From a virus: a stretch of DNA of 25,376 nt. The notes beneath the pieces are model-generated. The model saw nothing but the letters and a program-made list of their open reading frames with translations, did not search any database and had not been told where the DNA came from. Below, piece after piece: positions 1,945 through 25,376 of the stretch. Position 1 is the first letter of the stretch; every line of letters begins with the position of its first letter. The stretch is from positions 1-25,376 of the IMG/VR virus record IMGVR_UViG_3300025411_000075. One strand, 5' to 3'. Made by a program: the position numbers and the translations under genes.

Positions 1945-2265
1945 ATGGCAACCCAAATTAAACCTACAAAAAAGAACAGCTCGCCTATGCGTACTGGTCA
2001 TGCAAAAGATAATAAATCCGCTGAAGATTACGCTAAACCACACAAAATGTCTGGAAAAGCTATTGGAACATCAGATGTTGATTTAGGTGTTGGCTATGCA
2101 ACTGACCCAAATACCATGAAAGCAAATGAAGTAACTCCGGGCGGTATGCCAGCTATGCGTGTATCTATTGGTAACAATACTCGTGGTCCTAAGACTGATG
2201 GTATTGAAATGCGTGGTGCTGGGGCTGCAACTAAAGGTCGTATGTCTAGAGGTCCAATGGCATAA
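1945..2265 (+). CDS. Small Gly/Met/Lys-rich conserved protein
   Basis: A 106-residue protein that is polar and probably poorly ordered. It has a basic N-terminus, a central VGYATDPNTMKANEVTPGGM segment, and a C-terminus with GIEMRGAGAATKGRMSRGPMA. That final Arg/Gly/Met motif is a signature of a small family seen in the same place in related phage genomes; its function is unknown. The start is one base after the preceding stop, and the stop shares an A with the ATG of the next connector gene. A pair of small basic proteins between two connectors suggests an assembly or internal head role. Confidence 0.78.
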   Translation: MATQIKPTKKNSSPMRTGHAKDNKSAEDYAKPHKMSGKAIGTSDVDLGVGYATDPNTMKANEVTPGGMPAMRVSIGNNTRGPKTDGIEMRGAGAATKGRMSRGPMA

Positions 2266-3224
2266 TGAATTACGAAACGTTATATAACACGATTCAAGCT
2301 TACGCCGAGAACACTGAACAGCTGTTCGTGGCTAATATCCCCACGTTTGTTGAGGAAGCTGAAACTCGTATATATAACTCCGTAAACGTACCGTCATTAC
2401 GTAAAAATGTAACCGGTACTATGACCGCAGGAAACCAATACATTTCTTTGCCTATGGACTGGTTGGCTAACTATTCTGTGGCTGTGATTGACCCAACTAC
2501 AGGCATGTATAACTATCTTATTAACAAAGATGTTAACTTCTTGCGTCAGGCTTATCCTTTTGCTACTAGTAACGGAACCACCTATCAAGGTACTCCGGGC
2601 GGCACTCCTAAGTACTATGCGCTATTTGGTTCGCAATACAGCAATATTAACGAAATGACGTTGATGGTAGCTCCTACGCCAGACCAATCCTATCCAGTAG
2701 AGATGCACTATTACTACTACCCACCTACCATTGTGCAAGGTCAAATTAGTGGTTCATCTATTTCTAATGCAGGATCGCTATATACCAACGGTGTATACCA
2801 AAACGTTCCATTAACAGGAGGCTCAGGAGCCAATGCTACAGCAGATATCGTTATTACTGGTGGCGCAATTACTTCTTGTAATATTACTTTCGGTGGGAAT
2901 TTCTATGTTGTAGGAGACATTTTGTCTTGCTCTTCTTTAGGACCTACCGGTTCTGGATTTACAGTTACTGTATCTACGGTATCTAATGCATCTGGCACAA
3001 GCTGGCTTGGCGATAACTACGACCCCGTTCTTTTCTATGGCGCTATGCGTGAAGCTATGCTGTTTATGAAGCAAGAGCAGGACTTAGTGGCATACTACGA
3101 GCAAAAATATAATGAGGCTTTGTTAGAGTTTAGACGCTTCTGTGACGGTCTTGATCGTGGTGATGCTTACAGGGACGGTCAGACCAAGCTTAATATTAAT
3201 CTTAAAGGTAATGTGGTCTCATGA
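2265..3224 (+). CDS. Second head-tail connector / tail-tube-like structural protein
   Basis: A 319-residue protein. The N-terminus (MNYETLYNTIQAYAENTE, FVEEAETRIYNSVNVPSLRK) is the hallmark of a widespread aquatic-phage structural family that acts as an adaptor or gatekeeper-type component beneath the portal. The last 70 residues (YDPVLFYGAMREAMLFMKQE, YYEQKYNEALLEFRRF) are helical and belong to the same core. Residues about 157-246 are a Gly/Ser/Thr-rich beta insertion (NVPLTGGSGANAT, YVVGDILS) that separates the two conserved halves. Such insertions probably decorate the particle surface. The start is a TAATG junction, and the end overlaps the next gene by four bases. Confidence 0.8.
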   Translation: MNYETLYNTIQAYAENTEQLFVANIPTFVEEAETRIYNSVNVPSLRKNVTGTMTAGNQYISLPMDWLANYSVAVIDPTTGMYNYLINKDVNFLRQAYPFATSNGTTYQGTPGGTPKYYALFGSQYSNINEMTLMVAPTPDQSYPVEMHYYYYPPTIVQGQISGSSISNAGSLYTNGVYQNVPLTGGSGANATADIVITGGAITSCNITFGGNFYVVGDILSCSSLGPTGSGFTVTVSTVSNASGTSWLGDNYDPVLFYGAMREAMLFMKQEQDLVAYYEQKYNEALLEFRRFCDGLDRGDAYRDGQTKLNINLKGNVVS

Positions 3225-8857: not shown

Positions 8858-9013
8858 ATGTATAAATTACAACAAAACGCACCTGACGGAAAAGCATATA
8901 GCGTAATTCGTTTAACAGACGGAGCTTTAATTCCATTTGACCCATCCAACACAGACTACCAAGCCTACTTAAAATGGGTAGCTGAAGGCAATACACCGGA
9001 GGCAGCAGAATGA
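8858..9013 (+). CDS. Very small fibre-partner protein (51 residues)
   Basis: A 51-residue frame starting one base after the large fibre's stop and ending in a four-base ATGA overlap with the next fibre. The protein reads MYKLQQNAPDGKAYSVIRL then a core of DGALIPFDPSNTDYQAYLKW and ends VAEGNTPEAAE. The VIRL-x-D-G-x-x-I-P-x-D-P and YLxWxAEGNTPE blocks define a small family that follows fibre genes in many aquatic phages and also appears fused to fibre-assembly proteins. Function is probably assembly or capping of the fibre; this is inference. It is shorter than usual gene-calling cut-offs and easily missed. Confidence 0.8.
   Translation: MYKLQQNAPDGKAYSVIRLTDGALIPFDPSNTDYQAYLKWVAEGNTPEAAE
8998..9002 (+). 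promoter_or_regulatory. Ribosome binding site (GGAGG) inside the upstream gene
   Basis: GGAGG lies seven bases before the ATG at 9010, within the last codons of the 51-residue gene. It supports independent as well as coupled initiation of the glycine-rich fibre. Confidence 0.7.
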
Positions 9014-10011
9014 CACAAGCAGCTAACTTAGCAGCACTCGGTTCTAACGGTTCACTTCAAATGCCAACATGGACTACGGCTACTCGCCCTACGGGTGTCG
9101 CTGGATTAACTGGATATAATTCAAGTTATGGTGGCTTAGAATATTACAACGGTACTAGCTGGACAACAGTTTCAACTCCACCTATTTATACAGGAACATA
9201 TTTACTTGTAGCTGGTGGTGCTGGTGGTGCTCCATCTGGTGGAAGCGGTGCTGGCGGTTTGTTAACAGGAACCTATTCATTATCTATTGGCACAACATAT
9301 ACTTTTGTTGTTGGAGCTGGAGCAGCGGGTGGCGCCAAAGCAAACGGGTCAAACTCTACTGCTTTTGGATTAACCGCTCTTGGTGGTGGTTATGGCGCTG
9401 ACGGTGGTGGCGGTTCAGGAGCACCTTCAAGCGGGGGTTCAGGTGGAGGTGGTGGTTCAGGTTCCTATACCACAGGTGCATCAGGAACTTCAGGTCAAGG
9501 CTATGCTGGCGGTAACTCTGCTGGAGCATCAGGAAACTATGGATCTGGCGGTGGTGGCGGTGCTGGTGGAATTGGCGGTAATGGCGGAACAAATGCTGGT
9601 GCAGGTGGTGTTGGTGCTGTAACTACTATTATTACCACAGCTCAAGCAACATCCGCTTCAGTTGGTCAAGTTGTAAGTTCTTCGGTTTATTTTGCTGGTG
9701 GTGGTTCTGGTTCTGTTTATAACTCGGGAACGATTGCTGCTGGTGGTTATGGTGGTGGTGGAACTGGTGCGTTAGGTAATGGTGGTGGTGGAACAGTAAC
9801 AAATCCAACCAACGGCTCTGCAAATTCAGGTGGAGGTTCAGGTGGATATGGTTTATCTGGTGGAACTTCTCCATCAGGTGGTTCAGGTGTATTTATTCTT
9901 TCTGTTCCAACTGGGACATATTCTGGTACTACAACTGGAAGTCCAACAGTAGTTACTAATGGTTCAAATACAGTAATGATTTTTAAATCTTCGGGGACAT
10001 ATACGGCATGA
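9010..10011 (+). CDS. Glycine-rich tail adhesin/fibre
   Basis: A 333-residue protein. Residues 1-58 form a small stem ending in YNSSYGGLEYYNGTSWTTV, a motif used at fibre joints. From about 64 it is dominated by glycine runs (GGGGSG, SGGGGGSG, GGGGGAGGIGG) broken by short hydrophobic strands (YLLVAGG, TYTFVVGAG, GVFILSVPTG). This resembles glycine-rich phage adhesins, in which polyglycine II helices form a lattice and the loops between them bind receptor. The bias to GGT codons produces spurious frames on both strands. It overlaps the next gene by four bases. Adhesin function is inferred from architecture. Confidence 0.82.
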   Translation: MTQAANLAALGSNGSLQMPTWTTATRPTGVAGLTGYNSSYGGLEYYNGTSWTTVSTPPIYTGTYLLVAGGAGGAPSGGSGAGGLLTGTYSLSIGTTYTFVVGAGAAGGAKANGSNSTAFGLTALGGGYGADGGGGSGAPSSGGSGGGGGSGSYTTGASGTSGQGYAGGNSAGASGNYGSGGGGGAGGIGGNGGTNAGAGGVGAVTTIITTAQATSASVGQVVSSSVYFAGGGSGSVYNSGTIAAGGYGGGGTGALGNGGGGTVTNPTNGSANSGGGSGGYGLSGGTSPSGGSGVFILSVPTGTYSGTTTGSPTVVTNGSNTVMIFKSSGTYTA

Positions 10012-10313
10012 GTCATTTCGCTAAAGTTCACAACGGAATTGTTGAGCAAGTTATTGTTGCAGAACAAGACTTTTTTGATACATTTGTAGATACAAGTCCC
10101 GGTGAGTGGATTCAAACATCCTACAATACCCAAGGAAACAAACATCTTTTAGGTGGCACTCCGCTTCGTGGTAATTTTGCTGGAATTGGTTTTACATACG
10201 ACAGAGAAAATGATGTATTTATTCCACCAAAACCATCTGAAAATGCAACATTAAACACAACAACATGGCTGTGGGAAGTACCAGCTAAAGGATTACCAAA
10301 TGGCTCTAACTAA
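10008..10313 (+). CDS. Conserved small tail-fibre-associated protein
   Basis: A 101-residue protein with a striking conserved pattern: MSHFAKVHNGIVEQVIVAEQ, WIQTSYNTQGNKH, LRGNFAGIGFTYDRENDVF, IPPKP and TWLWEVP. This family is very common in aquatic tailed phages, including cyanophages, next to fibre genes; its role is unknown but tail-associated. The start overlaps the glycine-rich fibre stop by four bases and its end overlaps the next fibre by 14 bases, so all three are translationally linked. It may help assemble or terminate glycine-rich fibres. No catalytic motif is seen. Confidence 0.82.
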   Translation: MSHFAKVHNGIVEQVIVAEQDFFDTFVDTSPGEWIQTSYNTQGNKHLLGGTPLRGNFAGIGFTYDRENDVFIPPKPSENATLNTTTWLWEVPAKGLPNGSN

Positions 10314-10938
10314 AGTCCAAGGGGCAATGATGTCCTCTAGTCCAGCCGTAACTGTTTATACGTCTGGATCTGGTACCTATACAACTCCAGCTAATTGCTC
10401 TTATCTTACTGTTCGTATGGCTGGTGGCGGTGCTGGTGGATCAGGAAACGGAACAAGCCCAGGAAATGGCACAAGTGGTGGCAACACAACTTTTGGTAGC
10501 GCATTTTTAACTTGTAATGGTGGTTCAGGATCGCCAAATTATTTTACTGGTGGTTCTGGTGGTACCGCTAGTGGTGGTGATATTAATATTACAGGTCAAA
10601 ACGGTATGGGCGTTTCTAACAACGCTCAAAGTACTAATGCTGGCGCTGGAGGTAGCAATTTATTAGGTTTAGGAGGATCCACTCCAAATACAGGTGTAAA
10701 TGGATATGCTGCAACTGGATATGGCGCAGGTGGTGCTGGTGCTGGTAATATTCCCGCTGGTCAAAATGCAGCTTGTGGTGGCGGTGCTGGCGGTTATTTG
10801 GAAAAATTAATTACGTCTCCGTCTGCTACTTATGCGTATTCAGTTGGTTCTGCTGGATCTGGAGGCGCTGCTGGTACATCTGGTTGGGCTGGCGGAAATG
10901 GTTCTGGTGGCATTATTATTATTACAGCATATTTCTAA
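10300..10938 (+). CDS. Second glycine-rich tail adhesin/fibre
   Basis: A 212-residue protein. The MALTKVQGAMM start is a conserved fibre N-terminus, which fixes the start inside the preceding gene. Residues about 24-45 give a beta hairpin (YTTPANCSYLTVRMAGGGAG). The rest is glycine-rich with a C-terminal block (GGGAGGYLEKLITSP, YAYSVGSAGSGGAAGTSG, GNGSGGIIIITAYF) typical of phage glycine-rich domains. It shares its composition with the gene at 9010 but not its N-terminus. Receptor binding is inferred. The stop and the next ATG share a base (TAATG). Confidence 0.82.
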   Translation: MALTKVQGAMMSSSPAVTVYTSGSGTYTTPANCSYLTVRMAGGGAGGSGNGTSPGNGTSGGNTTFGSAFLTCNGGSGSPNYFTGGSGGTASGGDINITGQNGMGVSNNAQSTNAGAGGSNLLGLGGSTPNTGVNGYAATGYGAGGAGAGNIPAGQNAACGGGAGGYLEKLITSPSATYAYSVGSAGSGGAAGTSGWAGGNGSGGIIIITAYF

Positions 10939-14563: not shown

Positions 14564-14992
14564 ATGTTTAACAAACAAGAATGGAAAAAAGAAAGAAGAA
14601 AAGATCCCGCTTATAGAGCTAGGGAGAATAAACTTCAAACCATTCGCCGTGCAAATAAAGGCACTTCTTTAGAAGATCCAGAAAAAGTGCGAGCTAGAAC
14701 TAAAGCTTGGAAACAAGCAAACCCCGGTAGAGTAATAGCAAATACTACTAGGCGTAAAAAACATATTAGACTTAGAACTCCAAATTGGTTAACTCCTATT
14801 GATTTTGAGCGCATACAAACTCAGTATCAATTAGCGGCTTTATTGACTAAAATAACTGGTAACCCTTGGGAAGTGGACCATGATATTCCTTTGTTAGGAA
14901 AAAATGTATCAGGCTTACATGTGCCATCTAACTTAAAAGTAATCTCAAGGCAAGACAATTTAACAAAATCTAACCGGTTTGAGGTGGTTTAA
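14564..14992 (+). CDS. HNH endonuclease
   Basis: A 142-residue protein. The N-terminal 75 residues are strongly basic with KAWKQANPGR-type motifs seen in phage homing HNH enzymes. The nuclease core is at the C-terminus: WEVDHDIPL (D105-H106), GLHVPSNLKVIS (H119, N123), then N132-x-x-K135. This is the HNH/HNN pattern in which H106 is the expected catalytic base and metal ligands follow. Such genes are often free-standing mobile endonucleases, though some act in DNA packaging. It lies between the endolysin and a tail gene, six bases after the endolysin stop and sharing a base with the next start. Confidence 0.87.
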   Translation: MFNKQEWKKERRKDPAYRARENKLQTIRRANKGTSLEDPEKVRARTKAWKQANPGRVIANTTRRKKHIRLRTPNWLTPIDFERIQTQYQLAALLTKITGNPWEVDHDIPLLGKNVSGLHVPSNLKVISRQDNLTKSNRFEVV

Positions 14993-17103
14993 TGCCGTTA
15001 CAAAAATTACAATTTAGGCCGGGTGTTTATAGAGAAGGCACTATTTACAGTAACGAAGGTGGTTGGTACGACTGTGATAAAATACGCTTTCGTTCTGGTT
15101 TACCTGAAAAAATTGGAGGCTGGACACAGCTATCTCCTAATCAATTTCTTGGAGTTGCCCGTTCTATTTGGGTATGGTTAGATGGAGATGCTGGTGTTGG
15201 TACTCAGTATATTGGCGTTGGCACAAATAACCACTATTACATTTATACCGGTGGTGTCTATAACGATGTTACCCCAATCATACAAACAGATATGTTAACT
15301 AACCCTTTTACAACAGCATCAGCTTCATCAATCGTAACTGTATCTGACGCTTCCTATAATCCGGGTATTGGGGATTTTGTTAATTTTTCTGGTGCAACGG
15401 CGGTTGGCGGTTTAATTATTAGTGGACAGTATCAAGTCTTAACTGTACCAAGTTCAACTACATACACAATTAATGCTGGGTCTAATGCAACAAGTACAGC
15501 AACTGGTGGTGGCACAGTAACTGCGGCCTATAACTATCCTAGCGGTCTAAACGTTTATACCATTGGCACAGGATGGGGTGCTGGTCCTTGGGGTCGAGGA
15601 ACGTGGGGTTCTGCGTATTCTTCGGGTGTTGGACAACAGTTACGCCTTTGGTCTAACGATAATTTTGGTGCTGACCTTGTATTAGCTCCTCGTGGTGGTC
15701 CAGTATTTTATTGGCAAGATAGCGGAACAGTATCAACCCGCGCTCAATATTTAAGCAACTTAGCTAATTCTACAACTGCAGTTACCGATGCTTCTACATT
15801 TACTGCCAGCGCTACAACCATAACGGTTAGCACAGCTAATGCGCCGTATATTTTTCCTTACATGGAAATTACTGGTACTCACATTACTGCGGGAACTCAA
15901 GTGGCTTCAAGCTACATAACCGGATCTACATCTGTACCGATTACTTCACCTACAACTGGTGTTAATGCGGGCAACTATAACTTTTCTTATGCTGGTGCGT
16001 TTGTGCCAACTCAAACCTATCAAGTTATTTCATCAGAGGTTCAAGAATTTATTATCTGTTTTGGGGCAAACCAATATAGTCCAAATAATGCCAATACCGC
16101 ATTTAATCCTATGACTGTGCGCTGGTCTGATCAAGCTAACCAATATCAATGGATTCCACAACTTACCAACCAGTCGGGTGAATATACTTTAACAAACGGC
16201 TCATACATTATGTGTGCCCGTGCAACTCGCCAAGAGATTTTGGTTTGGACAGATTCAGCAATATATTCCATGCAATATATTGGTGCGCCATATGTTTGGG
16301 GTTTCCAGATTTTGATGGACAACATATCTGTTATGGGTCCAAACGCTACGATTACCGTAAACAATATTACCTATTGGATGGGTCGTGACCGTTTCTATAT
16401 GTATGACGGTACAGTAAAAACTTTACCTTGCTCGTTAAAACAATATTTATTTGAAGATATTAACCAAGATCAAAGCTACCAAGTATTTGCTGGCGCTAAT
16501 GAAGGCTTTAACGAAGTCTGGTGGTTTTATGTTAGTAACTCCAGTTTAAATACATCTGTAGATAAATACATCGTTTATAACTATTTAGACCAATGTTGGT
16601 ATTACGGCACAATGGCTCGCAGTGCTTGGCTACAAACTGGAACCCAACCTTACCCAATTGCAGCTGACTATAACGGTAGATTGCTTTACCACGAAAACGG
16701 CAACGACGATCAGTCTACTTCCAGCACCCAACCTATAGATGCTTATATTCAGTCTTCAGACTTTGATATTGGTGACGGGCAGAGCTTTGGTTTTGTTTGG
16801 AGAATGTTGCCTGACGTAAACTTTAATAGTTCTACAACTAACCAGCCGTCGGTAACTATCCAGCTACAACCACGCCAAAACTCTGGTTCAGCCTACAATA
16901 CTAACGTAGATAATCCACAGGTTTTAAGTAGTCAAGACTTTTCTGTTTCTGTGCCAGCTTATACGGTTAATCAGTTTACTGGGCAGGTATATACCCGTGT
17001 TCGAGGCCGTCAAATGGCATTTAGATTAGAGTCTACTGGACAGGGTGTAGCTTGGCAATTAGGCGCTCCACGTATTGATATTAGACCTGATGGACGCCGT
17101 TAA
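14992..17103 (+). CDS. Large tail / DNA-stabilisation structural protein (P22 gp10-like candidate)
   Basis: A 703-residue protein. The N-terminus LQFRPGVYREGTIYSNEGGW, then YDCDKIRFRSGLPEKIGGW, is the signature of a large aquatic-phage structural family placed with tail or stabilisation proteins. WG- and Trp-rich strands (WGAGPWGRGTWGSAYSSG, VWWFYVSNSS, CWYYGTMARSAW) fit a beta-propeller-like hub. Two Ser/Thr/Gly-rich insertions (about residues 104-180 and 263-333) look like decoration domains interrupting the core. The C-terminus has GQVYTRVRGRQMAFRLES, also conserved in tail-hub proteins. The P22 gp10 parallel comes from context, not a clear motif. Coding is certain. Confidence 0.78.
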   Translation: MPLQKLQFRPGVYREGTIYSNEGGWYDCDKIRFRSGLPEKIGGWTQLSPNQFLGVARSIWVWLDGDAGVGTQYIGVGTNNHYYIYTGGVYNDVTPIIQTDMLTNPFTTASASSIVTVSDASYNPGIGDFVNFSGATAVGGLIISGQYQVLTVPSSTTYTINAGSNATSTATGGGTVTAAYNYPSGLNVYTIGTGWGAGPWGRGTWGSAYSSGVGQQLRLWSNDNFGADLVLAPRGGPVFYWQDSGTVSTRAQYLSNLANSTTAVTDASTFTASATTITVSTANAPYIFPYMEITGTHITAGTQVASSYITGSTSVPITSPTTGVNAGNYNFSYAGAFVPTQTYQVISSEVQEFIICFGANQYSPNNANTAFNPMTVRWSDQANQYQWIPQLTNQSGEYTLTNGSYIMCARATRQEILVWTDSAIYSMQYIGAPYVWGFQILMDNISVMGPNATITVNNITYWMGRDRFYMYDGTVKTLPCSLKQYLFEDINQDQSYQVFAGANEGFNEVWWFYVSNSSLNTSVDKYIVYNYLDQCWYYGTMARSAWLQTGTQPYPIAADYNGRLLYHENGNDDQSTSSTQPIDAYIQSSDFDIGDGQSFGFVWRMLPDVNFNSSTTNQPSVTIQLQPRQNSGSAYNTNVDNPQVLSSQDFSVSVPAYTVNQFTGQVYTRVRGRQMAFRLESTGQGVAWQLGAPRIDIRPDGRR

Positions 17104-17408: not shown

Positions 17409-17450
17409 ATGATAAAATCCAATAAAATTGAGGTAAAGGACCTATTATGA
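17409..17450 (+). CDS. Possible 13-codon minigene in the largest gap
   Basis: The 38-base gap holds an ATG directly after the upstream TAA. It opens a 13-codon frame (MIKSNKIEVKDLL) whose stop overlaps the next start as ATGA. The junctions copy those of real genes here, so it may couple translation across the gap. It has no visible ribosome binding site of its own, and the gap is AT-rich, so chance is quite possible. Confidence 0.25.
   Translation: MIKSNKIEVKDLL
17435..17440 (+). promoter_or_regulatory. Ribosome binding site (AAAGGA)
   Basis: AAAGGA with a six-base spacer to the ATG at 17447. It fixes the start of the first candidate ejected-protein gene after the only gap of more than 20 bases in the window. 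Confidence 0.7.
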
Positions 17451-18895
17451 GCGGTGGCGGCGGCAATGCAATACTCCCAGCAGTGGGAGCTGGACTAGGA
17501 ATAGCATCCCTGATTGCTACAGGAGGCGCAGACGCCCCTCTTGTTGGCGCTGAATTAATGGGTCCAACCGATGCTGAGTTAGGCTATGAGGGCATGAGCT
17601 CTATTCTTCCAAGCCTAAGCCAAGCGGCAACTGGGGCTAGTGTAGCAAACAACTTAAATAACGTTAATAACGCATTAAGCCCTCAAGAATTACAAGCTTG
17701 GAACCAAGGTCAAATGGATTCTTTTGTACAGAATCCTAACCAATATGCTCCAGTAGCATCTAATGACCAAACTCCATTAGTTCCTGTAAATCAGGACGTA
17801 GTATCTAATGTTCCTGCTGCGCCACAGATTCCTGATCGTTCGCTGACTTACCAAGGACAAAACGTTGTATTGCCGGGAGAGGGTGGAGATATTTCCGCTT
17901 GGCAACCAAACCAACCCGGTATGCAACCATTTTTGCAATCTGGTCCAGACGCTACAAGTTATGGTTTTCCAAAAATTCCAACGGATCAGTTGCCACAAAC
18001 CAACATAGAAACCCCTACTCCAGATCAATTAAAGCAATTACAAGTAGGTGGCCCTCAAGCTGCAGGCACTCCTTGGTATGAGCAGTATTGGAAAAACCTT
18101 ACAGATACTTCTGGAAAAGGTCTTAACTGGACTCAAAAAGGCACTTTAGGCGCTGCTGGTATTGCAACCCTATTAGCATTGCAAAAGTCTAATGCAATGA
18201 AGCCTAACTATTTGCCCGGCTATACACCGCCTTCTGCTGCTTCCTATGGCCTAGGCAGAACACTAGCGCCTAACTATCAACCATTACGTGCATCAGCATA
18301 TGGTTATGCTACAGGTGGAAACGTTTCCAGCGCTCCTACTCCAATGCCCGGATCTGTACCAAGCCAAGGCATAGCACCTGCAGATTTAATGCAAAAAAGC
18401 ACTGCATTACCACAGCAATTACAAGACCTTATGTCACAATATGGGATTACCTCACAGCAGGCATCTCAAGGTATTCAGTCTTTAATGGGCAACCAACCTA
18501 CTCCTAGGGCTGGCGCATCATTCAGTACGGGTGGAGTTCCTCATTTAAAAGAAGGTTCTTTTGTAGTTCCTGCTGACGTAGTAAGCCATTTTGGTAACGG
18601 CTCTACGGATGCTGGTTTAAAAGCATTGCAAAGACATCTAGGTGCTAGTCCTATTATGGGACACGGCGATGGCATGAGTGATGACATCCATACCAGCATT
18701 GAAGGCAAACAGCCTGCTCGTGTAGCCAATGGTGAAGCTATCGTAGCTCCAGAGAAAGTCAGAGAATTAGGCAAAGGTTCTACCGATGCTGGTGCTAAAA
18801 AGTTATATGCAATGATGAATAAAGTTCGTAAAGCCCGTACTGGGACTACGAAACAAGGTAAACAGATTACAGCTGATAAGTACATGCCAGCATGA
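17447..18895 (+). CDS. Candidate internal/ejected virion protein with tape-measure-like C-terminal motifs
   Basis: A 482-residue protein. The N-terminus is Gly/Ala hydrophobic (AILPAVGAGLGIASLIATGG). The middle is Gln/Pro/Asn-rich and probably disordered, with a second Gly/Ala stretch (GTLGAAGIATLLAL, near 235-250). The C-terminus holds a doubled unit: GGVPHLKEGSFVVPADVV then GNGSTDAGLKAL (about 362-395), and GDGMSDDIHTSIEGKQPARV followed by ANGEAIVAPEKV and GKGSTDAGAKKL (about 405-455). It ends in a basic tail (KVRKARTGTTKQGKQI). This C-terminal family is widespread in aquatic phages. SD-x-I-x-PAR-x-x-x-GE-x-V-type motifs also occur in tape-measure ends. A role in ejection is inferred from context. 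Confidence 0.8.
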   Translation: MSGGGGNAILPAVGAGLGIASLIATGGADAPLVGAELMGPTDAELGYEGMSSILPSLSQAATGASVANNLNNVNNALSPQELQAWNQGQMDSFVQNPNQYAPVASNDQTPLVPVNQDVVSNVPAAPQIPDRSLTYQGQNVVLPGEGGDISAWQPNQPGMQPFLQSGPDATSYGFPKIPTDQLPQTNIETPTPDQLKQLQVGGPQAAGTPWYEQYWKNLTDTSGKGLNWTQKGTLGAAGIATLLALQKSNAMKPNYLPGYTPPSAASYGLGRTLAPNYQPLRASAYGYATGGNVSSAPTPMPGSVPSQGIAPADLMQKSTALPQQLQDLMSQYGITSQQASQGIQSLMGNQPTPRAGASFSTGGVPHLKEGSFVVPADVVSHFGNGSTDAGLKALQRHLGASPIMGHGDGMSDDIHTSIEGKQPARVANGEAIVAPEKVRELGKGSTDAGAKKLYAMMNKVRKARTGTTKQGKQITADKYMPA

Positions 18896-19299
18896 TTGTT
18901 AAGCACGTAAACGTTAATTATTGCGCTCAAGTATGGCCAGATGTTGAAAAACATATAGCAGAAGCGCAAAAATACGGTGGTGATGATTACACGCTAGAGC
19001 AAGTAAAATCATACGTTTGTACTGGGCAGTGGTTGTTATTGGTAGCAGTAGATGAGCAGGGAGCAATACACGGTGCGGCAACGGTAACATTTTTAAATAT
19101 GCCAAATGACCGGATTGCTTTTATTACGTTTATTGGCGGTAGATTAATATCTAACAAAGATACGTATGCTCAGATGGCAAGTATATTTAAGCAACTTGGA
19201 GCAACAAAAATACAAGGTGCTGCTAGAGAGTCTATAGCCCGTTTGTGGAGTAGATATGGTTTTGAAGAACGCTACAGAATTGTAGAGGCAAAGATATGA
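18892..19299 (+). CDS. GNAT-like acetyltransferase-fold protein
   Basis: A 135-residue protein. The beta strand pair WLLLVAVDEQGAIHGAATVT, the NMPNDRIAFITFIGGRLIS core and the C-terminal GATKIQGAARESIARLWSRY then GFEERYRIV are the features of a GNAT-like family frequent in aquatic phages. The closing Y-GF-E block is where GNAT proteins complete the acyl-CoA fold. A strict Q/R-x-x-G-x-G/A loop is not obvious, so acetyltransferase activity is unproven. It overlaps both neighbours by four bases and sits between two candidate ejected proteins, so it may be a virion component or modify one. Confidence 0.72.
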   Translation: MIVKHVNVNYCAQVWPDVEKHIAEAQKYGGDDYTLEQVKSYVCTGQWLLLVAVDEQGAIHGAATVTFLNMPNDRIAFITFIGGRLISNKDTYAQMASIFKQLGATKIQGAARESIARLWSRYGFEERYRIVEAKI

Positions 19300-20534
19300 G
19301 AAGTTACTCAAGAAGAGAATTGTACGCATTAGGTGAAACCCTAGGCGAATCCGTTACCCAGAAAAAGGTAGGCGGAGGTCGTATATATGGTGGTGGTGGC
19401 GGTGGACCATCTGCTGCTCCAGCTCAAACCACTCAGCAGTCTAACCAATACTCTAGCCTTTCTCCATACATTGCTCCGTACATTACTTCTGTTTTGGGCG
19501 CTGCTCAACAACAAGTATTTAACGTAGATCCTTCATCTGGAAACATTACCGGCATTAATCCATATACCGCTTATGGATATCAAGGTGCTGGTATGTCTCC
19601 TGCATCACAGCAAGCTGCTCAATCATCTGTAGCAGGATTTACTGGTTTACAAAACCAAGCATTCCAAGGTGCCGGTCAATTACAGACTCCTGCACAATAT
19701 GGTGCTGCTACAGGCGCTGCTGCTGGCGCTACCGGCAATATGTTTAATTTAGCTAACACAGCTAATCCATATGACTTCCAACAAAATGTTGGTGGTTACA
19801 TGAACCCTTATATTCAGAATGCTCTTAGTCCAGCATTGCAATTAGCTAATCAACAATACGGCATTGCAGGAGCTCAACAGGCTGGTCAAGCGACAGGCGC
19901 TGGTGCATTTGGCGGAACTCGTAGTGCATTACAGCAGGGTTTGAATCAACAGAACCAGATGCTGGCACAGAATCAATTAATTGGTAATGCCTATAACCAA
20001 GCGTTTAATGCTGCACAAAATCAATATAACCAATCTGGTCAGTTTGCTTTGAATGCAAATCAAGCTGCATTACAAGGTGCTGGACAGTTGGCAAATATTG
20101 GCGGTCAACAATTAGCCGCTCAACAAGGCATCCTTGGTTTACAGAACCAGTATGGTACACAGCAACAACAGCAACAACAGAACATCATCAACCAAGCAAT
20201 GCAGAACTATCAGACTGCACAGCAATACCCAATGCAGCAGCTCACACAGTTGAAGTCTTTGGCACAAGGCTTGCCAATTACCGATGTCACCACAACTCAA
20301 CAAGCCGCTCCTCCTTCAGCGTTTGGTCAGCTTGCTGGTATTGGCTTAACTGGTATTGGTGCTTATGGTGCATTGAACTCAGGAAACTCTCCTACGATTA
20401 ACGTTAATACTCCACCGCCAGTTGCCGCACAAACTTCTAAAGAAGGCGGTATTACTAAGCTCAAGGGTAAGACTTACGCAAGTGGAGGTCTGGTTGATTT
20501 AAGCCTATACAACACATTGAAAGGCGCAGCATGA
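19296..20534 (+). CDS. Gln/Ala-rich candidate internal virion protein
   Basis: A 412-residue protein of low complexity but clear family features. After a basic, Gly-rich N-terminus it has SLSPYIAPYITSVLGAAQQQ, a conserved NPYTAYGYQG stretch, and GGYMNPYIQNALSPALQLAN followed by AQQAGQATGAGAFGGTRSAL. It continues with long helical Gln/Asn/Ala segments (ANQAALQGAGQLANIGG, and a seven-Gln run near 288). The Y-M-x-P-Y-x-Q and GAFGG-(S/T)-R blocks mark a family widespread in aquatic short-tailed phages, taken to be internal or ejected proteins. It closes with EGGITKLKGKTYASGGLVDL, a motif shared with its neighbours. Both ends are four-base overlaps. Confidence 0.8.
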   Translation: MRSYSRRELYALGETLGESVTQKKVGGGRIYGGGGGGPSAAPAQTTQQSNQYSSLSPYIAPYITSVLGAAQQQVFNVDPSSGNITGINPYTAYGYQGAGMSPASQQAAQSSVAGFTGLQNQAFQGAGQLQTPAQYGAATGAAAGATGNMFNLANTANPYDFQQNVGGYMNPYIQNALSPALQLANQQYGIAGAQQAGQATGAGAFGGTRSALQQGLNQQNQMLAQNQLIGNAYNQAFNAAQNQYNQSGQFALNANQAALQGAGQLANIGGQQLAAQQGILGLQNQYGTQQQQQQQNIINQAMQNYQTAQQYPMQQLTQLKSLAQGLPITDVTTTQQAAPPSAFGQLAGIGLTGIGAYGALNSGNSPTINVNTPPPVAAQTSKEGGITKLKGKTYASGGLVDLSLYNTLKGAA

Positions 20535-22651
20535 TTAATAGCCTAATGAGCCGTATGGGTGCAGCAGAAAAGTTAACTGTTGCGCAATTACAACAAGCAG
20601 TTAAAGACGGTACATTACCTGCATATGTTGGCATTCCTCTTATTCAAGATAAGATGAAACAGCAGCAGGAAGCACAAGCTGGCAAACCAGTGCCACCACA
20701 GCCACCAGTCGCTGAACAGGTTTTAATGGCGGCAGATCAACGCCGTGGTATTGATGAGGCTTCATCTAACCTACCAGAGATGAGTGCTGCTGAAGGCGGC
20801 ATTATGTCTTATGCAGCCGGTGGTGATGTAGATGCAGAAGACTACGAAGATTACTTACAGCAAGCCCAAGATGAGCAAGACTTAGAGTTTGCTAACATGG
20901 CTGCAGAAAACCAAGGTATTGCTGCTGTAGCAAAAGAACCTGCGTATGTAAACAAAACTCCTAATGTAGAGCAGGGTATTAAACAAGCACCGGTACAATC
21001 TACAGCGGGTTCTGTTAATCAAGATCAAGCTCGTAAATATAACGTAGGAAACTTACGTCCTTCGGGCTTTACTTACCCCGGACAAATTGGTTTAAGCAAG
21101 GGTAAATTTGCATTGTTTGATAGCCCAGAGGCTGGATTAAATGCTTTAAATCACGATATTGATGTTAAGTTAAATCGCGGCTTAAATACTCCTGAAAAGT
21201 TTTTAAATGTTTATGCGCCTAAAAGCGATAAGAATGATACAGAAGCCTACATCCGCAACGTATCTAAAGCTCTTGGCATTAAACCAAACCAAGAAATTCC
21301 TAATACACCAGAAGCAAAACAAGTATTAGCGAATGCTATTATTAAGCAAGAAGGAGCCATGTATGCAACGGCTAACTTTGCTGATGGTGGTATTGCTTCT
21401 ATTCCTAGCTATGCTGGTAATTCAAAAACATTTGGTAGCTTGGTTCAGGACGTTCCTGAAGCTGGTGAAGGCAATGAAATGCTTGCTAATTATTTAGCAA
21501 ATTTAGATTACAGCAAACCTGATTATTCACAAATGATTGCTCAAGAAAATGCTAGATTATTGGGTAGAACACCTAATACTGGCTTTTCTCCGACCAGCGC
21601 TTTAGGGATTACACAGGTTCCTCAAGCCGCACTTGGTAGCCAATTATTGTCTGGATATACACCAGAACCTGTGCCTGCTGCGCCTACAGAAGTAGCTGCT
21701 CCAAGAGTATTGCCAAGGTCACAAGCTCGTGCATTCGAAGGCATTAAAGAGTTGATGACTCCTGCTCCAAGTCAGCGCACTCTTGCCGCAAGAAGAGCAT
21801 ATACAGATAGCGCAACACCTGCAGCTACATTAGCCTCACAACCAACAGAAGTTGCTCCAATGGATACTTCTGAAAGAGATAGAGAACGTGCTAGGTCGGC
21901 AGCTACTGCTGGCGTAAATCAAAGAGATATTGCTGCAGGAAACCTACAAAGCTCACCTAACGTTATTGATATGCTCAATAGCAAGTTTACTGGCGATCAA
22001 TTCCAAGTGCCTACAGCTGCAGCCAAAGCCCCCAAAGAAGAATCTATGTGGGATAAGTATCTTGCTGGACTTAATATGTCTCGTGAAGACCTTAAAGCAC
22101 AAAAAGAAGAAGATAAGTATCTTGCCATCCTTGCTGCTGGTTTAGGAACTCTTAAGGCCGCTGGCACTATTGAGCCCGGCAAAGTACATACTACGCTTGG
22201 TGATGTTTCTACTGGCGGACTGGAGGGCCTTGGTTATGCTGCAAATGCCGCTAAGTCTCGTGCCGCACAAGAAATTGCATTAAACAAAGAAATAGGTACT
22301 GGTCTATACAGACAAGAACTTATCAAATCTACCGGTGGAAATAGAGCTGCTCAATTAGATATCAGCAGAGCCGCATTAGAAGAAAAGAAACGTGAGTTTG
22401 CTGGTAAACAACTTGAAGGCAAAGACAAGCAGATTCGTGACCAAGTATTGGCTTACTATAAGTTAGATCCAACCAAAGCGCTTTCAGATCCAGATGTTGC
22501 CGCATCTATTGAAAGACAGATTGCTCTAGCAAAACAGAAAGATCCAACTTATAATGTATTACACAAAAATTACTATGGGTTTGATTATGCAACCCCAGTC
22601 GCTAGTGGCGATAATGTAATGCGTTTTGACAAGACCGGTAAACAAGTTTAA
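20531..22651 (+). CDS. Candidate ejected virion protein with lysozyme-like 'NxGNLRP' domain
   Basis: A 706-residue protein. Residues 15-60 (LTVAQLQQAVKDGTLPAYVG then IPLIQDKMKQQQ) are a conserved N-terminal module. Two Gly-Gly motifs follow (AAEGGIMSYAAGGDV; NFADGGIASIPSYAG). Between them, about 165-280, lies a compact domain, RKYNVGNLRPSGFTYPGQIG, FALFDSPEAGLNALNHDI, NVYAPKSDKNDTEAYIRNVS and ANAIIKQEG. It resembles virion-associated lysozyme-type or structural P5-like domains in other phages. A local wall-cleaving role at entry is possible but no catalytic residue can be named. The rest is Ala/Pro linker and charged helix (about 600-650), ending NVMRFDKTGKQV. Coupled to the previous gene by ATGA. 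Confidence 0.78.
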   Translation: MINSLMSRMGAAEKLTVAQLQQAVKDGTLPAYVGIPLIQDKMKQQQEAQAGKPVPPQPPVAEQVLMAADQRRGIDEASSNLPEMSAAEGGIMSYAAGGDVDAEDYEDYLQQAQDEQDLEFANMAAENQGIAAVAKEPAYVNKTPNVEQGIKQAPVQSTAGSVNQDQARKYNVGNLRPSGFTYPGQIGLSKGKFALFDSPEAGLNALNHDIDVKLNRGLNTPEKFLNVYAPKSDKNDTEAYIRNVSKALGIKPNQEIPNTPEAKQVLANAIIKQEGAMYATANFADGGIASIPSYAGNSKTFGSLVQDVPEAGEGNEMLANYLANLDYSKPDYSQMIAQENARLLGRTPNTGFSPTSALGITQVPQAALGSQLLSGYTPEPVPAAPTEVAAPRVLPRSQARAFEGIKELMTPAPSQRTLAARRAYTDSATPAATLASQPTEVAPMDTSERDRERARSAATAGVNQRDIAAGNLQSSPNVIDMLNSKFTGDQFQVPTAAAKAPKEESMWDKYLAGLNMSREDLKAQKEEDKYLAILAAGLGTLKAAGTIEPGKVHTTLGDVSTGGLEGLGYAANAAKSRAAQEIALNKEIGTGLYRQELIKSTGGNRAAQLDISRAALEEKKREFAGKQLEGKDKQIRDQVLAYYKLDPTKALSDPDVAASIERQIALAKQKDPTYNVLHKNYYGFDYATPVASGDNVMRFDKTGKQV

Positions 22652-22660
22652 GGGTAGTAC

Positions 22661-25376
22661 ATGCCAATTACAGCGGAGTTATTTGACGGTACTCGATTAG
22701 AGTTCCCAGACGGAACAGATCCATCTGTTATTCAAGAAACTGCACAACGATTAACTTTTGAGCGAGCTCCGCAACAATCTAATTTAAAAGCTGCTTTTGA
22801 AAGTGGCGTAGAAAGCTACCTATCTCCAACACAAACAGCTTTAGAATCTTTAACAGGTAGCCCTGAAGAGGCTGCTAAACGTGGTTTAAAACGCCAAGAG
22901 GCAGCTCAACAAAAATACGAAGGTCCTAGCCTAGAGGGTATTCAAAAAGAGTATCAAGAAAAAGGGTTATTAGCAGCCACTAAAAAAGCCATAGGACAGA
23001 TTCCAGAAGCTGTTGCTGCACAAGTACCGCAAATCGGTGCAATGGGCGTAGGAGCAACTTTAGGCGGTATTGGTGGTGGTGCTCTAGGATCTGCGGTTGG
23101 TCCCGCAGGAACCGTGGCAGGAGCCGCTGCTGGTGCTAAATTTGGTCAGATGGTAGGTCAAGCACTTGCTGAGTTCCCACAATTTTTTGGTTCTGATATT
23201 GAACGCCAAGCCCAAGAACAAATAGCTCAGGGTAAACCCGTAGATATTAACCGCATGAAAGCTGCTGGCGCTGCCGCAGGACAAACTGCATTAGATATCT
23301 TTGAAACTCAAATGTTATTTGGTAGCTCTACTGTTGGTAAATTATTAGGGTTTACTCCTAAACAGTTAGCAAACACCAGTGCTGAAGCCGTAGAAAAAAT
23401 GGCAAAACGGTCTATTCTTGAGACGGCAGTGAGAGGTACTGCAAAGGGTGCTATTGCTGAGATTCCTAACGAAATTGCACAGCAAATGCTGGAAAGAGCG
23501 CAGGCTGGATTATCGTTAACCACTCCTGACGCTTTGCATGAATATGGTCAAACAGCTTATCAAGTTGGCTTATTGGCTCCATTAGGTATGGTTGGAAGCT
23601 TTGGAGAACGTGGCGCTGCAAGAAAAGAAATTGCTGCACGTGGCATTTCTCCAACAGAAGAGCCTCCAAAACAGCCTCCAGCGACTCCAATCGTTCAGCC
23701 TAACCTACCTACTAACCAGCCCGTAACGCAAGCTGGTGTAGCCCCTATAGCCCCTGTAATCCCTAAGATTCCAGAGATACAGACTACCCCTACTGGAATG
23801 GCGGTTCCTGCACCACCAGCTCCTGCTGCTCCTGTGGTTCCTGCTGCCGTAGCTCCAGTTCAACAGCCTAAACCTCCAGCTACTCCAGTTGGTATCAGCG
23901 CAGGCAATACATCAGATCAGAACCGTGACCGTTCATCCCCAGCTTCCGTAGCGCAGATGCAAGGTATTGCAGCAAGACCTATGTATGCGTTTGTTGGTCC
24001 TTCCAATACCATTTCTGGTTCTGGAGCTCCAATCGTTACCGGTCCAACAGAAATTCCTGAATCACAAAGAGGATTCCGTGTTGAGACTAAATCTGAAGAC
24101 GGCACAAATATTCCCGTTCAATATGCTGTAGTAGAGGCTAAAGACTTATTGCCATCTCATAATGCAGACGGTAGCGCTAATAAAAACTATGGTAAAGATC
24201 ATAGCGGCTTACGTGCCGTAGTTGGTAACGGTCGTACTGCTGGCCTACAAGAAGCGTATAACAAGGGCACTGCAGAAGATTACAGAGCGGCCATGATTAA
24301 AGATGTAGGGCATGGTATTGATCCTAAAGTAATCGAAGGAATGAAAGAGCCGGTATTGGTTCGTTTTGCTGATCCTGCCGCTATACCATCTAATATTGGT
24401 GACCTTTCCAATACATCAGGCACTCTTAATCTATCTGCACTAGAGCAAGCACAAAATGATGCTGGCAGAGTAGATCTTGCAGGACTTGGATTTGATGACA
24501 ACGGCAACATAACGCCTAACACTATCCGTCAATTTATTGCTGCAATGCCTACATCAGAGCAAGCTAATCTGATTGACAAAGATGGATCACCTACTCGTCA
24601 GGCGCATGACCGACTTAATGCCGCTATTTTCCATAAGGCATACGGCAATAATGACTTAACAACGCTGGCACACCAATCAGAAGATCCTGAAGCCCGCAAC
24701 ATCCTCAGAGCTCTTTCTGAAGCAGCTCCACAGATGGCACAGATTGATGGTGCTGGAGCATACGATATCCGTGAAAACGTGGCACAGGCTACCCAGTTAG
24801 CGGTTAATGCTCGTAGAAATGGTATTAAGTTAGAAGACTTGGTAAAGCAAGCAGACATGACAGTTTCGCCTAGAACAATGCAGTTCTTAGGTTTGTTTGC
24901 TGATAATCCACGTTCACCAAAGAATATTTCAGAAGCATTAAAGAATTTAGCAACCAACATTGCGAATGAAGTTAATAGGCCAACAGAAGGATTGTTTGGT
25001 GCAGAACCTAAGAAATCTATTGAGCAGTTGGTTTATGAAGCAACTAAGCCCAAAAAGCCTGAAGCAGATTTGTTTACTGCTCCTCCTGCTGCTGAAGAGC
25101 CTAATAGCGGTCCAAAATCTGGAACTACCGTTAATGAAGACTTAGACAAGGTTTATGAACTGGCGGGCAAAAGCAAACAAGCTATCCATAATGAACTGTT
25201 GAAAATTAAAAATGTTCCACAGCTTGCAGAATGGGCTGTTAAGAATGCGCCTAATCCAGTTGCAAAAATTATTGCTCAAAAAGTAAACCAGCGTATCCAA
25301 GAATTTGTTAAAGAAAATGTACGCATGGACTTTAAGATTCTTGATGGGTCTGCAAGAGCAAAGAATAAGTGGTCTG
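22661..25376 (+). CDS. Polyvalent-type giant virion protein with DdrB/ParB-like domain (3' partial)
   Basis: At least 905 residues, open to the window edge with no stop. The N-terminus (LFDGTRLEFPDGTDPSVIQE) is a short module found at the start of many ejected phage proteins. Residues about 125-168 form a glycine-zipper hydrophobic stretch (VGATLGGIGGGALGSAVG), followed by DIERQAQEQIAQGKPVDINR and a second hydrophobic segment. This suits membrane crossing. Residues about 331-415 are a Pro/Ala linker. About 485-780 match the DdrB-type ParB-like domain of polyvalent proteins (VVEAKDLLPSHNADG, GLRAVVGNGRTAGLQEAY with GNGR at 522-525). Such proteins enter the host with phage DNA and counter defence or process DNA. 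Further domains probably lie beyond the edge. Confidence 0.85.
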   Translation, partial: MPITAELFDGTRLEFPDGTDPSVIQETAQRLTFERAPQQSNLKAAFESGVESYLSPTQTALESLTGSPEEAAKRGLKRQEAAQQKYEGPSLEGIQKEYQEKGLLAATKKAIGQIPEAVAAQVPQIGAMGVGATLGGIGGGALGSAVGPAGTVAGAAAGAKFGQMVGQALAEFPQFFGSDIERQAQEQIAQGKPVDINRMKAAGAAAGQTALDIFETQMLFGSSTVGKLLGFTPKQLANTSAEAVEKMAKRSILETAVRGTAKGAIAEIPNEIAQQMLERAQAGLSLTTPDALHEYGQTAYQVGLLAPLGMVGSFGERGAARKEIAARGISPTEEPPKQPPATPIVQPNLPTNQPVTQAGVAPIAPVIPKIPEIQTTPTGMAVPAPPAPAAPVVPAAVAPVQQPKPPATPVGISAGNTSDQNRDRSSPASVAQMQGIAARPMYAFVGPSNTISGSGAPIVTGPTEIPESQRGFRVETKSEDGTNIPVQYAVVEAKDLLPSHNADGSANKNYGKDHSGLRAVVGNGRTAGLQEAYNKGTAEDYRAAMIKDVGHGIDPKVIEGMKEPVLVRFADPAAIPSNIGDLSNTSGTLNLSALEQAQNDAGRVDLAGLGFDDNGNITPNTIRQFIAAMPTSEQANLIDKDGSPTRQAHDRLNAAIFHKAYGNNDLTTLAHQSEDPEARNILRALSEAAPQMAQIDGAGAYDIRENVAQATQLAVNARRNGIKLEDLVKQADMTVSPRTMQFLGLFADNPRSPKNISEALKNLATNIANEVNRPTEGLFGAEPKKSIEQLVYEATKPKKPEADLFTAPPAAEEPNSGPKSGTTVNEDLDKVYELAGKSKQAIHNELLKIKNVPQLAEWAVKNAPNPVAKIIAQKVNQRIQEFVKENVRMDFKILDGSARAKNKWS

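Follow-up and report, generated by a model that had tools for sequence, protein, structure and literature searches.

The window analysed here is the whole of virus record IMGVR_UViG_3300025411_000075, a linear fragment of 25,376 bases. Its last open reading frame (ORF) starts with an ATG at position 22661 of the + strand and reads through 905 codons without a stop codon up to the last base of the record (22661..25375, 905 aa), and the virus fragment terminates within a large multi-domain protein. Upstream, the + strand carries a series of virion genes. Specifically, the gene at 14992..17103 encodes a virion structural or stabilization protein that serves as syntenic anchor (phrog_3287, E 4.8e-67; 36% to the DSL-LC04 stabilization protein), and the gene at 17447..18895 encodes a candidate internal virion protein of 482 aa that is conserved beside the relatives with swapped segments described below (BLAST matches in 25 ORFs, including the window's own). 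Consistent with an earlier note on this DNA, which had placed the giant protein next to candidate ejected proteins, the 412-aa product of 19296..20534 is DNA ejection protein-like (phrog_4287, E 1.1e-5) and conserved upstream of the swapped relatives, while the 706-aa product of 20531..22651 resembles endolysins and tail-injection transglycosylases (phrog_873, E 3.6e-17; phrog_2276, E 1.4e-16; phrog_7182, E 1.3e-7) and is itself a candidate ejected protein. Piluca (Alcaligenes), TPWB-05 and MD-2021a (Acinetobacter), Pseudoalteromonas Y3 and two Manatee Spring podoviruses have the same gene order, with a ddrB-ParB giant as its last member. The virus is probably a short-tailed phage, and the ORF at the end of the record would code for the N-terminal portion of a polyvalent virion protein.

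Several minor features accompany this cluster. The small gene at 18892-19299 occupies the position of an acetyltransferase gene in relatives; its assignment as a GNAT was dropped, as Pfam finds no acetyltransferase in it and it does not resemble the Comamonas GNAT. Between the GH19 lysozyme and stabilization genes lies an endonuclease VII/HNH-like gene (14564-14992; phrog_1035, E 1.2e-10) that may have entered the virion cluster as a mobile insert. Additionally, matches to the SU10 adaptor family occur in the genes at 2265-3224 (strong, E 1e-19) and 329-1282 (slightly under the curated cutoff). Two very glycine-rich, repeat-like frames of tail-fibre type lie at 9010-10938, and the long opposite-strand frames overlapping them are probably not genes. 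Scans of the window for tRNAs and Rfam families found none.

In the N-terminal region of the giant, residues 122-166 (23024..23158, + strand) form a glycine zipper with nine overlapping GxxxG motifs, a number that none of 1000 shuffles reaches (shuffle maximum 6). The glycine zipper that had been proposed ahead of the ParB domain is therefore present, with modest hydrophobicity: the best 19-aa Kyte-Doolittle mean is 1.25, which is ordinary relative to shuffles, and the Pfam Gly-zipper_Omp match (E 0.0068) stays below its cutoff. A Pro/Ala-rich linker at about residues 330-410 separates the zipper from the ParB domain. The sole PADLOC match on the window, a weak LeoBC, falls on a glycine-rich stretch.

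Order of the conserved blocks in the ddrB-ParB domain

The profile match to ParB-like domains on which the earlier proposal of a giant polyvalent-type protein with a DdrB/ParB-like domain had been made to depend is strong: Pfam ddrB-ParB (PF18763) matches the ORF with E 5.9e-19 and 68.8 bits (cutoff 27.6), aligning residues 521-568 to profile positions 73-118. The relatives that share this domain are multi-domain polyvalent proteins. In addition, four large PHROGs without assigned function cover residues 406-794 (best E 6.7e-58). The range of residues 485-780 originally given for the domain holds in that the domain lies there, but its N-terminal limit is too short; the real start is residue 420 (QNRDR), and a block at 420-462 had been overlooked.

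In P1 DdrB and its relatives, the domain runs in a canonical order from a strand pair (block A, ..DASALLVSNTLDGKINPDYP) through a helix plus strand (block B, QPRDR..S..Q...IA..L.P..L..S....GAPII) to the GNGR helix (block C, VESGNGRT..AY). The window protein departs from this A-B-C order of the DdrB-ParB family. Its block B (QNRDRSS..SVAQMQGIA....GAPIV; residues 420-462, 23918..24046, + strand) comes first, and its block A (VQYAVVEAKDLLPSHNADG; residues 465-516, 24053..24208, + strand), a strand pair with QYAVVEAKDLLPSHNADG, comes second. These are followed by the block C core with GNGR (522-525) and the PVLVR strand (residues 519-569, 24215..24367, + strand), which contains the Pfam-matched segment, and by an all-helical extension at about residues 579-771 (24395..24973, + strand) that is seen in the AlphaFold model and in the profile alignment and is conserved in both order classes. 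An [LM]FG motif (SLFG, GLFG, DMFG) is conserved at the end of the helical extension in both classes, near residue 785 in the window, and bears only a loose resemblance to sliding-clamp-binding motifs.

Relatives were gathered from IMG/VR and GTDB genomes, and the swapped query gave 108 confirmed IMG/VR matches and 8 from genomes, including Burkholderia, Paraburkholderia and Parasutterella. Block HMMs assign 123 distinct domains to A-B-C and 87 to B-A-C (the window and 86 others), where distinct means non-identical and the counts mirror the queries chosen rather than abundance. The gap between blocks B and C is 1-4 residues in the 123 canonical proteins versus 55-69 in the 87 swapped ones. HMMs trained on canonical proteins only detect both blocks at E<0.01 in 72 of the 87 swapped proteins, in reversed order in 72/72; the window is among them, with E 4.3e-5 for block B and E 2.6e-7 for block A at residues 480-510. 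In separate profile-profile comparisons, swapped and canonical blocks align with their own counterparts (A-A 98.9%, E 3.3e-17; B-B 98.8%, E 5.5e-17), against 0.2% and 1.4% in crossed controls. When the whole domain together with the helical extension is aligned, the swapped profile is homologous to the canonical one, including P1 DdrB (PF18763; Iyer et al. 2017, PMC5512222), with 100% and E 1.9e-57, and block A is left unaligned on both sides, as expected from a swap.

These alignments bear on whether the protein is an ordinary DdrB-ParB polyvalent protein that has lost its true block A and carries an unrelated insertion between B and C. Both Pfam and hhalign align B and C around an insertion of 50-70 residues, just as such an event would produce; however, the inserted block is itself homologous to canonical A (A-A 98.9%, E 3e-17; B-B E 5e-17; crossed controls <2%) and is detected by the canonical-trained models in the 72 swapped proteins. 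We therefore rejected the insertion, which is refuted at the sequence level and which we regard as highly improbable. As read from the aligned blocks, the window ParB domain is a segment-swapped DdrB-ParB in which strand pair A has moved between B and C. The swap accounts for the failure of sequence profiles to detect block A in the swapped group, since Pfam takes it as an insertion. A scan with a DNA pattern for the ParB-domain motif gave 0 matches.

In an unrooted tree built from block C only, the order changes on one branch, with support of 94/98, compared with about 26 changes under shuffled labels. A-B-C is probably the ancestral order, since solved ParB proteins align colinearly with canonical DdrB. 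A search of the 210 distinct proteins for A-B-A-C duplication intermediates found none, and no protein has A on both sides.

When the window protein was searched by tblastn against 50,697 deposited phage records, 34 matched, only from residue 468 on, so that block B is covered by none of these 34; with the swapped query, none of the deposited records exceeded 60% identity. Assignment to a DarB/Bcep22 type was dropped, as no Bcep22-like phage is among the 34 records and a DdrB homologue goes unmentioned in the JC1 paper. The Piluca gp47 and TPWB-05 giants, which are epsilon15 gp16-like, share its position behind genes for an acetyltransferase, an internal virion protein and a transglycosylase-like protein and are 31-32% identical to the window over residues 516-785, but they have the canonical A-B-C order and about 950 aa, and Piluca has a separate pilot protein gene next. 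Closer in sequence are the Burkholderiales polyvalent proteins of L018, L020, L021, pBVIE05 and the Comamonas CSUSB4 plasmid, with 45-50% identity over the domain and other surrounding domains than the window (LPD5, LPD1 and LPD38 in L018). L018, L020 and L021, which are prophage or phage-plasmid proteins, have the B-A-C order of the window; for pBVIE05 and the Comamonas plasmid, block order is read from colinear tblastn matches only. Swapped segment order has no mention in the main text of PMC5512222, and no description of a permuted ParB or DdrB was found in the openly licensed literature. The ddrB-ParB polyvalent protein as such is of a known kind.

Conserved residues and predicted fold

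The Arg of GNGR is invariant in 61/61 swapped and 27/27 canonical rows of the alignments, and the Tyr in the helix after GNGR is invariant in 61/61 swapped rows; the window domain keeps both, as does P1 DdrB. The extra helix with a conserved Tyr that sits after the final helix and before the final strand of DdrB-ParB domains is present in the model of the swapped domain (helix 122-130, invariant Tyr124, ahead of strand 147-152). On the other hand, the DN before VESGNGR, conserved in >90% of canonical rows, is absent from the conserved columns of the swapped rows, and its equivalence to the published Asp/Asn at the end of strand 2 is unsure. The invariant residues over 61 swapped domains, the GNGR Arg and helix Tyr among them, argue for a retained site. 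Because the swap lies on one side of a single tree branch and GNGR, the Tyr and the residues of blocks A and B are kept, the same ParB-like site has probably been rebuilt with different connections.

The predicted structures agree with the order of the blocks. The AlphaFold2 model of the swapped domain, computed from 61 window and locus sequences (pLDDT 92.5), runs through helix 10-21, strand 41-43, strands 53-60 and 66-75, strand 100-104 and helix 106-118, an order that matches the B-A-C prediction and thus counts for the swap. The model of P1 DdrB (27 sequences) instead runs through strands 7-11 and 17-26, helix 55-67, strand 92-95 and helix 97-109. In VIA-align comparisons, the N-terminal CTPase domains of ParB, Noc and KorB take ranks 1-7 for the swapped model (Z 4.4-5.2) and 1-10 for the canonical one (Z 6.2-7.7). 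The P1 DdrB matches of 84-99 residues have an rmsd of 2.2-3.4 Å and start near ParB residues 20-50, whereas the compact matches of the swapped model cover 82 residues (Z 4.4-4.9, rmsd 3.0-3.2 Å) from ParB residue 40-50 on, which fits a block A that is out of order. The ParB CTPase structures, which follow A-B-C, are thus colinear with canonical DdrB and only partly with the swapped form. With neither model did Foldseek find a PDB match below E 0.001, and when the two profiles were searched against PDB chain sequences, only helical look-alikes came up. ParB CTPases would therefore be the closest solved folds for both models at a moderate level (Z <8), and the fold assignment leans on sequence too.

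This resemblance raises the possibility that the domain is a CTP-dependent DNA clamp like chromosomal ParB rather than a nuclease. The closest solved folds are indeed ParB CTPases with CDP or CTP analogues (6sdk, 7bnk, 7bm8), but the ParB motifs GERR and ENxxR are degenerate in DdrB-type domains and only partly kept here (GNGR; SNxS), no helix-turn-helix has been demonstrated, and the helical extension is without a clear structural match. We consider the clamp unlikely. Iyer et al. predicted the DdrB-ParB domain to be an NTP-regulated DNase (PMC5512222), and no assay of NTP binding or DNase activity of a DdrB-type domain was found reported in the literature searched.

Only tentatively, we propose that one natural segment swap within the ParB fold of phage polyvalent proteins may have given rise to a lineage that is widespread among viruses, several with links to Betaproteobacteria, and whose nucleotide-binding core has new loop connections and whose response to NTP or DNA could differ from that of canonical DdrB. 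With its conserved residues unchanged, the swapped lineage amounts to a natural experiment on which connections the domain can lose.

Missing C-terminus and predicted delivery

At the end of the record, the last 66 residues of the window protein (840-905; 25178..25375, + strand) align with the beginning of a domain found in at least 18 relatives. Against a profile of 18 relatives built without the window, this tail scores 62.5 bits, compared with 9.2 for the best of 1000 shuffles, and each of the 18/18 relatives checked has exactly one HExxH, about 85-120 residues past the start of the match. The tail is thus the start of a probable zincin-like peptidase domain, and the peptidase probably continues just past the record end, with HExxH itself outside the window. 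Scanning of four syntenic relatives showed lengths of 1.9-2.3 kaa and a C-terminal LPD38, so the missing part is most likely a zincin-like peptidase followed by LPD38. The unseen C-terminus had been guessed to hold protease, methylase or helicase domains. The peptidase part of this guess agrees with the tail match, but neither a methylase nor a helicase was detected in the four syntenic relatives; methylase appears only in more distant swapped relatives such as L013, together with Zeta-toxin, InPase, ART, RadC and PBECR1 domains in that group, and a helicase (SNF2) only in a neighbouring gene of the Burkholderia plasmid.

At least two disparate domains in one polypeptide, the mark of a polyvalent protein, are found directly in the relatives, whose complete members of 1.9-4 kaa have additional InPase, ART, RadC, methylase, PBECR1 and LPD domains. 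The window ORF carries the ParB domain and the start of the probable HExxH domain in one chain, in a virus record and beside virion genes, as expected of a mobile-element protein encoded near such genes. DdrB-ParB is among the most connected domains in injected phage proteins (PMC5512222). P1 DdrB is a head protein, detected by 39 peptides with 59.5% coverage (PMC9024508), and Dar proteins are co-ejected and enter the host with the DNA (PMC12810830). Like P1 DdrB, the window protein is predicted to be packaged and has a probable metallopeptidase domain downstream, which in the published prediction processes the chain (PMC5512222); it differs from P1 DdrB in block order, in its preceding glycine zipper and in its podovirus-type ejection cluster.

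We weighed whether the protein is packaged at all. It might act as a late intracellular factor, and our literature search found no virion proteomics for the swapped group; yet the gene sits among virion genes and P1 DdrB is detected in heads, which makes this reading quite improbable. In another reading, the main role of the protein is structural: it would be a channel-forming component of the ejectosome, comparable to T7 gp16 or epsilon15 gp16/gp17, with the ParB domain as a DNA grip or a non-catalytic relic. The slot after internal virion proteins, the glycine zipper and the epsilon15 gp16-like annotation of the Piluca homologue all fit such a part. The relatives, however, have numerous enzymatic domains, the invariance of the GNGR Arg and helix Tyr is unlike that of a relic, and P1 DdrB is non-essential (PMC10695390); a mainly structural role is accordingly not what we expect.

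Instead, our preferred reading, to which we give roughly two chances in three as a whole, is that of a packed, ejected and HExxH-cut polyvalent protein with a segment-swapped ParB domain that acts on nucleotide and DNA. The protein would be made late, be packed in the head beside the neighbouring ejection proteins and, judging from its position, its relatives and P1 DdrB, pass into the host with the DNA. In the host or during assembly, the downstream HExxH domain past the sequenced end may then cut the chain. The freed ParB-fold domain would bind nucleotide and, as an NTP-regulated nuclease or DNA-binding switch, act on incoming DNA or that of the host; this role is suggested by its fold family and the conserved GNGR Arg. 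For the window protein, we infer packaging, cutting and activity from homology and position; over 80 relatives, of which some belong to cultured strains, form a set suited to testing the packaging and biochemistry of the polyvalent class as a whole.

Two further observations concern the relatives. In the 88-kb plasmid pBVIE05 of Burkholderia vietnamiensis G4, which looks like a phage-plasmid, a shorter ddrB-ParB protein that is a close relative of the swapped group is directly followed by a giant SNF2-related protein (L306, 13776-23007). Additionally, residues 40-340 of L141 and 816-1057 of L147 match an N4-type virion RNA polymerase PHROG with E about 1e-17, which hints at shared delivery or peptidase parts.
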